From the NCBI GenBank assembly GCA_022564475.1, contig JADFLJ010000002.1:1-45664 (forward strand): a stretch of 45,664 bases of DNA, read 5' to 3'. This DNA is from Pseudomonadota bacterium. Its GTDB lineage: Bacteria; Pseudomonadota; Gammaproteobacteria; Steroidobacterales; Woeseiaceae. How positions within the stretch are numbered: the stretch's first letter is position 1; every line of letters begins with the position of its first letter. The position numbers were made by a program, and so were the translations under genes. Below the pieces are notes generated by a model that had not been told where the DNA came from, ran no database searches, and was given only the letters and a program-made list of their open reading frames with translations. Shown here piece by piece: positions 32,790-34,599 of the stretch.

Positions 32790-33308
32790 ATGAACAGTAG
32801 TAGTGCCGGGCTCGATCGACGGCGGAAATTTGACAATCTCGTGACCGTTTTCCACCAGGACATGTACCGCTACGCGGCGTGGCTTTGCCGGGACAAGACG
32901 ATTGCGGAGGACGTGGTTCAGGAGTCATTGCTGAGGGCGTGGAAATCCCTTGACGCGTTGCGCGACGACGGGGCATCCAAACAATGGCTGCTGACGATCG
33001 TGCGACGGGAAAATGCACGATATTTTGAACGCCGACGTCTCGAAACCGTCGATGTGGACGATTTGACGCCTTCGCAGGAAGCGATTCTTGCTGAGTCGCC
33101 GGATGATCAGCTCGACAATCTACGTGAGGCGATTTACGGACTGGAGGATGACTATCGCGAACCGCTCGTATTGCAGGTCCTGATGGGCTACAGCACGAAT
33201 GAAATCGCGGAGCAGATGGGACTGAAGCAAGGTGCGGTGCTAACGCGTTTACACCGGGCACGCCTCAAGCTCAAAGATCTGGTGCAAAGCGAGGATGCTT
33301 TGCCCTGA
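32790..33308 (+). CDS. ECF-type RNA polymerase sigma factor
   Basis: Region 2 ([34 protein letters not shown]) and region 4 ([41 protein letters not shown]). Confidence 0.92.
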
Positions 33309-33313
33309 CAGAC

Positions 33314-34033
33314 ATGAACACTATGAATACATGCGAAGAATACAGAGAAGCCATTGCAGCGGAGCCGTCGTTTGACGGTGGTGCCGCGCACTTGTCGCAA
33401 TGTGCGTCTTGCCAGGCATTTCGTGCAGAGATGCTGGCGCTCGACTTGAAAATCAGCAGCGCACTGGCGATCAGTGTTCCTGAGCTCAAGCTGCCGGAGT
33501 TGCCTGAATTGGATACGAGCAAGGTCACGGCAATGCCGCTGCGCCGTTTTGCTCAGCCGGCCTGGCTTGCGGTTGCCGCAACCGTCACATTGGCCGCCTT
33601 CATTGGTTTTGGCATGTTCGGCAGTGACGTGTCGAATGCGACGCTGGCAGAACAAATTCTCGTCCACATCGATCACGAGCCGGGTGCGTTTCGCGTGGTC
33701 GACGAAGCCGTGACAGACAAACGGCTGGCACGCGTTGTTCCGGCGAATATTGCGACATTGAATCACAGCGCCGGACTGATTACCTACGCCCGGAGTTGTC
33801 TCATTAATGGTCGTGAGGTACCGCACCTTGTAATCCAGGGCGAGTTCGGCCCCATAACAATCCTGCTCATGCCCGGGGAAAAAATAACAGGTGCGCAGAC
33901 CATCGAAGGCGAAAACGTGCACGGCATTATCTTGCCGGTCGGCGACGGCAGCATTGCGATTATTGGTGAGGTCGGCGAGCACCTCGAACGAATTGAAAAG
34001 CAAGTGATGAATTCAGTGACGTGGAGTACTTAA
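33314..34033 (+). CDS. DUF3379-like membrane protein, putative anti-sigma factor
   Basis: N-terminal zinc-finger-like HLSQCASCQAF, one TM (PAWLAVAATVTLAAFIGFGMF), and periplasmic domain; directly follows the sigma factor. Confidence 0.75.
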   Translation: MNTMNTCEEYREAIAAEPSFDGGAAHLSQCASCQAFRAEMLALDLKISSALAISVPELKLPELPELDTSKVTAMPLRRFAQPAWLAVAATVTLAAFIGFGMFGSDVSNATLAEQILVHIDHEPGAFRVVDEAVTDKRLARVVPANIATLNHSAGLITYARSCLINGREVPHLVIQGEFGPITILLMPGEKITGAQTIEGENVHGIILPVGDGSIAIIGEVGEHLERIEKQVMNSVTWST

Positions 34034-34091
34034 ACGCCGCAAGCTGAAATGAATGCCCATGCTAGGGCGCAATGCAGTAGGAGAGAAGACA

Positions 34092-34529
34092 ATGTCAGAG
34101 AGAAAAGTAGTAAAGCCAATTGCTTTGGCTGTTGGCGCGGCCCTCGCAGGCGCATTCGCGATCGGTAGTGTCGCAAGCGCTGAGACCGTTGATAATCCGT
34201 TCGAGATGTCTACGCTGACGGCCGGCTACATGCTGGGCGAGGGCGAAGGATCTTGCGGCGGTGACAAGAAAGACAAGGACGGCGAAGGTTCTTGTGGTGA
34301 AGGTTCTTGTGGCGGCGACGACGACAAAGACGGCGAGTCTGAAGATAAGGACGGCGAAGGTTCTTGTGGCGGCGACGATGACAAGGACGGTGAAGGTTCT
34401 TGTGGTGGCGACGACGACAAGGACGGCGAGTCTGAAGATAAGGACGGCGAAGGTTCTTGTGGTGAAGGCTCTTGCGGTGGCGACAAGGAAGACAAGGACG
34501 GCGAAGGCTCTTGCGGTGGACTGGTCTAA
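34092..34529 (+). CDS. HvfA/bufferin-like Cys-repeat RiPP precursor peptide (8 x EGSCG)
   Basis: MSERKVVKPIALAVGAALAGAFAIGSVASA signal-like segment, then NPFEMSTLTAGYMLGEG and repeated EGSCG motifs separated by D/K/E linkers. AGGAGAGAAG RBS; start ATG 34092. Confidence 0.75.
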   Translation: MSERKVVKPIALAVGAALAGAFAIGSVASAETVDNPFEMSTLTAGYMLGEGEGSCGGDKKDKDGEGSCGEGSCGGDDDKDGESEDKDGEGSCGGDDDKDGEGSCGGDDDKDGESEDKDGEGSCGEGSCGGDKEDKDGEGSCGGLV

Positions 34530-34569
34530 GCGACTGATTCACACCTGACTTTCGTTAATAGAAAGTAAG

Positions 34570-34599
34570 AGGCCCGCGTTTTACGCGGGCCTTTTTTTA
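34570..34599 (+). terminator. Rho-independent terminator
   Basis: GGCCCGCG-TTTTA-CGCGGGCC stem-loop followed by TTTTTTTAT. Confidence 0.92.

Follow-up and report, generated by a model that had tools for sequence, protein, structure and literature searches.

Control of MNIO peptides by ECF sigma factors is already known, and so are precursors without a linked MNIO. In Caulobacter, sigmaF and the membrane anti-sigma factor NrsF control bufferin operons, and the cysteines of NrsF are implicated in metal sensing (PMC3511200). The hvf operon of H. influenzae is controlled by RpoE2 under HOCl, and Neisseria SigE likewise provides ECF control of MNIO peptide operons (PMC7907618). In C. metallidurans, the copper- and gold-induced gigPABT operon lies beside the genes for an ECF sigma factor and a membrane anti-sigma factor (rpoQ-rsqA) and is probably controlled by RpoQ (PMC10304878). 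A survey of MNIO peptides published in 2025 did not settle whether unlinked precursors stay unmodified or are substrates of an enzyme encoded at another locus (PMC12452194). The captophorins HvfA/oxazolin and FonA/fontiphorin derive from EGKCG precursors that are modified by an MNIO together with a DUF2063 partner.

We analysed a window of 45,664 nt (the whole stretch of DNA presented above) in which the genes for an ECF sigma factor, a DUF3379 protein and an EGxCG precursor form a trio. This genome shares with the captophorin systems the signal peptide, the EGxCG repeats and the proteins HvfB, HvfC and HvfX, but here the precursor is encoded in the sigma/anti-sigma operon outside the MNIO cluster, its motifs read EGSCG and not EGKCG, and its spacers are acidic. 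As in the sigmaF-NrsF system, a membrane anti-sigma factor accompanies a small regulon in which one motif precedes both its own operon and an MNIO peptide operon; NrsF, however, belongs to DUF1109, has six membrane segments and lacks DUF3379, whereas the protein described here is a DUF3379 protein with one membrane helix, and the Caulobacter bufferin precursors are clustered with their MNIO (PMC3511200). The RpoE2-HrsE and Neisseria SigE systems also combine an ECF sigma factor and a ZAS anti-sigma factor with a distant hvf operon and envelope redox repair genes, although HrsE is a 67-aa soluble protein, hvfA is clustered with hvfB, hvfC and a DoxX gene, and rpoE2 adjoins msrAB rather than a precursor gene (PMC7907618). 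The likeness to gigPABT/rpoQ-rsqA lies in the association of an ECF sigma factor and a membrane anti-sigma factor with MNIO-type genes, which in C. metallidurans are arranged divergently with the whole operon together (PMC10304878). In the open literature we did not find described a DUF3379 type of anti-sigma factor, its fixed union with a precursor, a lineage-wide split of such a pathway or a promoter joining the two halves. We consider it fairly likely that the trio supplies the control functions and the substrate of an oxazolin (captophorin) pathway whose other half is encoded elsewhere in the genome, organised as an ECF sigma regulon for copper or thiol stress in the envelope, with modification of the precursor in trans.

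Organization and conservation of the sigma-DUF3379-precursor operon

The operon comprises the following features:

32757-32782, + strand: ECF-type promoter GTAATAA-N15-GGTC of the sigma operon, its GGTC end 7 nt before the ATG
32790-33308, + strand: ECF sigma factor, 172 aa (NF009170, 1e-62, above cut-off; Pfam Sigma70_r2 and r4_2)
33314-34033, + strand: DUF3379 anti-sigma factor, 239 aa (PF11859, 111 bits against a cut-off of 33; alignments; AlphaFold2 model)
34055-34068, + strand: intercistronic hairpin GCCC-N6-GGGC before the precursor gene (kept in relatives as GCCC-N2-8-GGGC)
34092-34529, + strand: HvfA/oxazolin-type precursor, 145 aa (NF050137 HvfA-type repeat above cut-off)
34567-34595, + strand: intrinsic terminator with a 13-pair stem, 8 G-C pairs and a T run behind

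The preliminary description had placed the sigma and anti-sigma genes 5 bp apart, the precursor 58 bp further on and a canonical terminator at the end, and this layout was confirmed throughout, the sigma and DUF3379 genes being separated by 5 nt on the same strand. The precursor open reading frame spans 34053-34529, and translation probably begins at the ATG at 34092, which has AGGAG in front and lies 58 nt behind the DUF3379 stop codon. As in other ECF sigma factors, only regions 2 and 4 are recognized, and a candidate cognate anti-sigma factor is encoded next to them. Terminator-like patterns are no more frequent in the region than on a shuffled background (6 found, 6.2 expected), 34567-34595 being much the strongest, and Rfam returned only sub-threshold matches, mainly to this terminator. 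The operon is flanked by hemB, divergent and upstream of the sigma gene, and past the terminator by tag (3-methyladenine glycosylase). Two further elements were noted in these flanks. A 30-nt block, TTTTCCCTGTATTTCGGTAGGGTTTCCATG (32699-32728), lies between hemB and the sigma gene, is kept in 44 of 59 loci with up to six substitutions and is missing from more distant relatives; it is possibly a hemB promoter or operator. REP-like palindromic repeats, GTAGGAGCGGCTTNAGCCGCGA, occur in six copies in the window against none expected (34636-34657, 4318, 7409, 10124, 12443 and 12474), the first of them just past the operon terminator.

The survey of sigma, DUF3379 and EGxCG-peptide trios that had been suggested at the outset revealed a conserved arrangement. 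One scan of named genomes yielded 59 DUF3379 relatives at independent loci, the majority titled Woeseiaceae and the rest unplaced gammaproteobacterial or proteobacterial MAGs. The EGxCG precursor stands immediately behind DUF3379 in all 59, with the sigma gene in front in 58, hemB divergent upstream in 57 and tag downstream in 57, so the arrangement is not due to chance. On the basis of this synteny and the ECF-type promoter, the earlier proposal of one transcription unit of regulator plus MNIO-type precursor is upheld; the lack of synteny among relatives that had been named as telling against it was not observed. The intercistronic hairpin recurs before the precursor in 53 of 60 loci, compared with a mean of 1 and a maximum of 5 in shuffles; since no T run follows it, a role in stabilising or processing the mRNA is more likely than one in termination. 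It would fit, though not demonstrate, differential expression of the precursor, which the preliminary description had taken to be probably the most abundant product.

The precursor has a Sec-type signal peptide (about 34092-34181) with an AxA site after about residue 30, the leader PFEMSTLTAGYM (pattern PFxM..L..GYM) and an acidic core with 8 Cys, each inside an EGSCG motif; in most relatives the EGxCG precursors have 5-15 Cys. The signal peptide and repeated EGxCG cysteines correspond to the HvfA type, while the precursor scores 23 of the 95 bits of the stricter equivalog NF050188 and falls below its cut-off. The peptide is probably copper-binding. The spacers between the EGSCG motifs (34272-34520) read DDDKDGESEDKD and resemble DxDxDG calcium-binding loops, and many relatives are without them. 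Fusions of EGKCG and EF-hand domains are known, and a calcium link is therefore possible.

The DUF3379 protein begins with a ZAS-like domain, C7-H26-x3-C30-x2-C33, whose C7, H26, C30 and C33 are each conserved in at least 90% of 33 aligned sequences. In the AlphaFold2 model (mean pLDDT 82), helices 7-16, 24-29 and 31-51 form an N-terminal three-helix domain, so that both the helical domain and the C/H-x3-C-x2-C motif of class I ZAS anti-sigma factors are present; the motif is not universal in DUF3379, being missing in some other gammaproteobacterial members. A single membrane helix (about 84-103) leads to a mixed alpha/beta periplasmic domain, in which the alignments show H118, C162, P170 and H171 to be invariant and H121 and E122 nearly so. 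The His, Glu and Cys residues of this domain are plausible Cu(I) or redox ligands. Sequence searches found no relative with a solved structure. Foldseek matched the model to RseB/MucB with a probability of 0.94-0.97 but an E-value of only 0.065-0.08, and this resemblance was not confirmed by profile comparison with RseB_C, in which the real alignment did not exceed shuffled or reversed controls. DUF3379 is listed in Pfam as of unknown function, and a search of 5.39 million papers of the open literature found no mention of it.

The distant MNIO locus and the common promoter

The trio had also been regarded as a self-contained cassette, and this part of the preliminary description did not hold: hvfB, hvfC and hvfX are located on another contig (C171) and are tied to the trio by a common promoter. 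This contig carries the only MNIO of the genome, with HvfC (DUF2063) and HvfX (DoxX-like) encoded behind it; HvfB (NF003818, 416 bits), HvfC (NF050145, 283 bits) and HvfX all score above curated equivalog cut-offs, so the genome contains a cognate MNIO together with its HvfC partner. No precursor gene was found in this MNIO locus. MNIO, EGxCG and DUF3379 genes each occur once in the source assembly, which is 83% complete and may therefore lack a further MNIO or precursor. The split is no assembly artefact, because the two loci are far apart on single contigs of relatives: in the single-contig genome G078 (4.06 Mb) their positions are 103 kb and 2477 kb, a separation of at least 1.7 Mb, and G081 has about 2.1 Mb between them on a 3.6-Mb contig. 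An EGxCG gene is missing from all 32 MNIO loci inspected, and the usual, though not strictly defining, clustering of a precursor with its own MNIO is thus absent here; in other families of the order a precursor beside the MNIO does occur (e.g. G104). Among 149 related genomes, DUF3379 is present in 103, MNIO in 124 and EGxCG genes in 112, and the trio and MNIO are jointly missing in the family's six reduced genomes (Fisher p 2e-5, the relatives not being statistically independent).

The motif GTAATAA-N15-GGTC was spotted by eye in the sequences preceding 30 sigma and 30 MNIO genes and afterwards checked in a second set of loci. In its strict form it precedes 30 of 30 same-genus sigma genes and 27 of 29 MNIO genes, the other two MNIO regions being one base off, and the spacer in sigma and MNIO regions is always 15 nt, never another length. 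Shuffled upstream regions gave 0.0002-0.0007 motifs per region, and 207 kb of flanking sequence held one further match. In the second set the motif stands before the sigma gene in 54 of 57 assessable loci, with one change in two more. An earlier candidate promoter, TCGGTAGG-N-GCGTC, had exactly two matches in the genome, both in the right places, and was not conserved in relatives; it was discarded as a coincidence.

Wherever the motif precedes the sigma gene, its GGTC ends 6-7 nt short of the ATG. How far an ECF -10 element usually lies from the transcription start is established, and at this spacing there would be no room for a ribosome-binding site. The sigma mRNA is thus probably leaderless, starting at or a few bases from the ATG.

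A scan for the motif was made by pattern matching only, and with 11 fixed bases some matches will be due to chance. The 2.44 Mb of the source genome contain six N15 matches: the sigma gene, the MNIO gene, two TlpA-like thioredoxins, a periplasmic AhpC/TSA-type redoxin and one site without an obvious gene. Twelve near-complete relatives have 51 matches (2-8 per genome), as compared with 14 for a backward control; each of them has both the sigma and the MNIO match, and G040 has nothing else. The recurrent other targets among the matches examined are a redoxin, TlpA-like thioredoxins, a membrane thioredoxin, DsbC, DUF1223 and DoxX, that is, mostly thioredoxin-fold or MNIO-linked envelope genes, and matches without explanation are about as numerous as the backward control predicts. 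Two other matches were recorded. At L125 (G081, contig C1, about 213 kb) the motif precedes a BufA2 bufferin operon close to another MNIO (C1:212050-212841), which places a second type of metallophore behind this sigma motif. A 106-107-aa protein (RHKxTGTLLAxGPLGWGITPFEGN) with the motif in two genera (L148, L124) is a candidate regulon member.

The promoter is retained in more distant families of the order and at several other gammaproteobacterial DUF3379 loci. Outside the Woeseiaceae-type group, the motif precedes only one of 29 scanned EGxCG genes, so the regulon link does not hold for Gammaproteobacteria as a whole. Co-occurrence of DUF3379 and EGxCG genes in other Gammaproteobacteria is moderate (28/57 against 79/312 genomes; Fisher p 7e-4, uncorrected for kinship). 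At 7 of 29 loci of other Gammaproteobacteria with a sigma-DUF3379 pair or a DUF3379 gene (L222, L226, L227, L228, L229, L238 and L239), an MNIO gene, mostly of another subfamily (32-40% identity), lies within about 1.5 kb, a hint that DUF3379 and MNIO peptides may be associated more widely.

Proposed mechanism and alternative explanations

In the model that we propose, the membrane-bound DUF3379 protein would hold the ECF sigma factor at rest via the ZAS-type domain on its cytoplasmic side. The signal would come from the periplasm, most likely as excess Cu(I) or an oxidant, and would act on C162, H118, H121, E122 and H171 and free the sigma factor; copper as the signal is inferred by us from family precedent, its one ground. 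The freed sigma factor would transcribe the GTAATAA-N15-GGTC promoters, providing positive feedback on its own operon and production of the precursor, and would also drive the distant hvfB-hvfC-hvfX genes (MNIO, RRE partner and DoxX-like protein) and periplasmic thioredoxins and redoxins. In trans, the MNIO complex would then modify the cysteines of the EGSCG motifs; once exported to the envelope, the peptide may sequester Cu(I) or a similar soft metal. More tentatively, and with some doubt, we suggest that the DUF3379 proteins of this group could constitute a novel class of anti-sigma factors that sense Cu(I) or thiols in the periplasm. With the RiPP precursor always in their operon, they would form a module of regulator and substrate that recruits a maturase encoded megabases off, a heritable lineage-wide split held together only by the shared ECF promoter, and the leaderless sigma mRNA could be made even when normal initiation fails.

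One alternative, which we regard as somewhat unlikely, is that the regulon responds to oxidative or disulfide stress (HOCl, H2O2, methylglyoxal) and not to copper, the peptide serving as a sacrificial or redox-active thiol store. The presence of periplasmic thioredoxins, a redoxin and DsbC among the targets, an anti-sigma factor combining one invariant periplasmic Cys with ZAS cysteines, and the induction of the H. influenzae hvf operon by HOCl via RpoE2 (PMC7907618) would all agree with such a role, but the characterised EGKCG products bind Cu (PMC13097082, PMC12538549), and no msr gene appears among the motif matches examined.

An improbable explanation is that the precursor is a stand-alone apo-peptide binding metal through free Cys, with HvfB and HvfC acting on another substrate and the promoter being common through a general envelope-stress regulon. 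Stand-alone precursors are known, their modification being left open (PMC12452194), and the MNIO locus is without a precursor of its own; however, the assembly offers no other EGxCG gene, the MNIO is by curated cut-offs of HvfB type and not of bufferin-maturase type, the trio and the MNIO are jointly lost in reduced genomes, and the promoter spacing is identical at both loci. Finally, that the promoters are independent, with GTAATAA-N15-GGTC coincidental or belonging to another regulator and the sigma factor controlling other genes, is very unlikely: the first candidate motif was such a coincidence, but the occurrence of one spacer length in 57 of the 59 upstream regions, where shuffling gives rates below 0.001, and retention of the motif in distant order members and at some other gammaproteobacterial DUF3379 loci argue against it.

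The two loci have a common promoter with exact spacing and are present or lost together, which points to modification of the precursor in trans by the distant MNIO and makes this question testable. The proposed control and substrate half of a split pathway gives DUF3379 a candidate role, and it predicts a small regulon for the Woeseiaceae, widespread bacteria of marine sediments.
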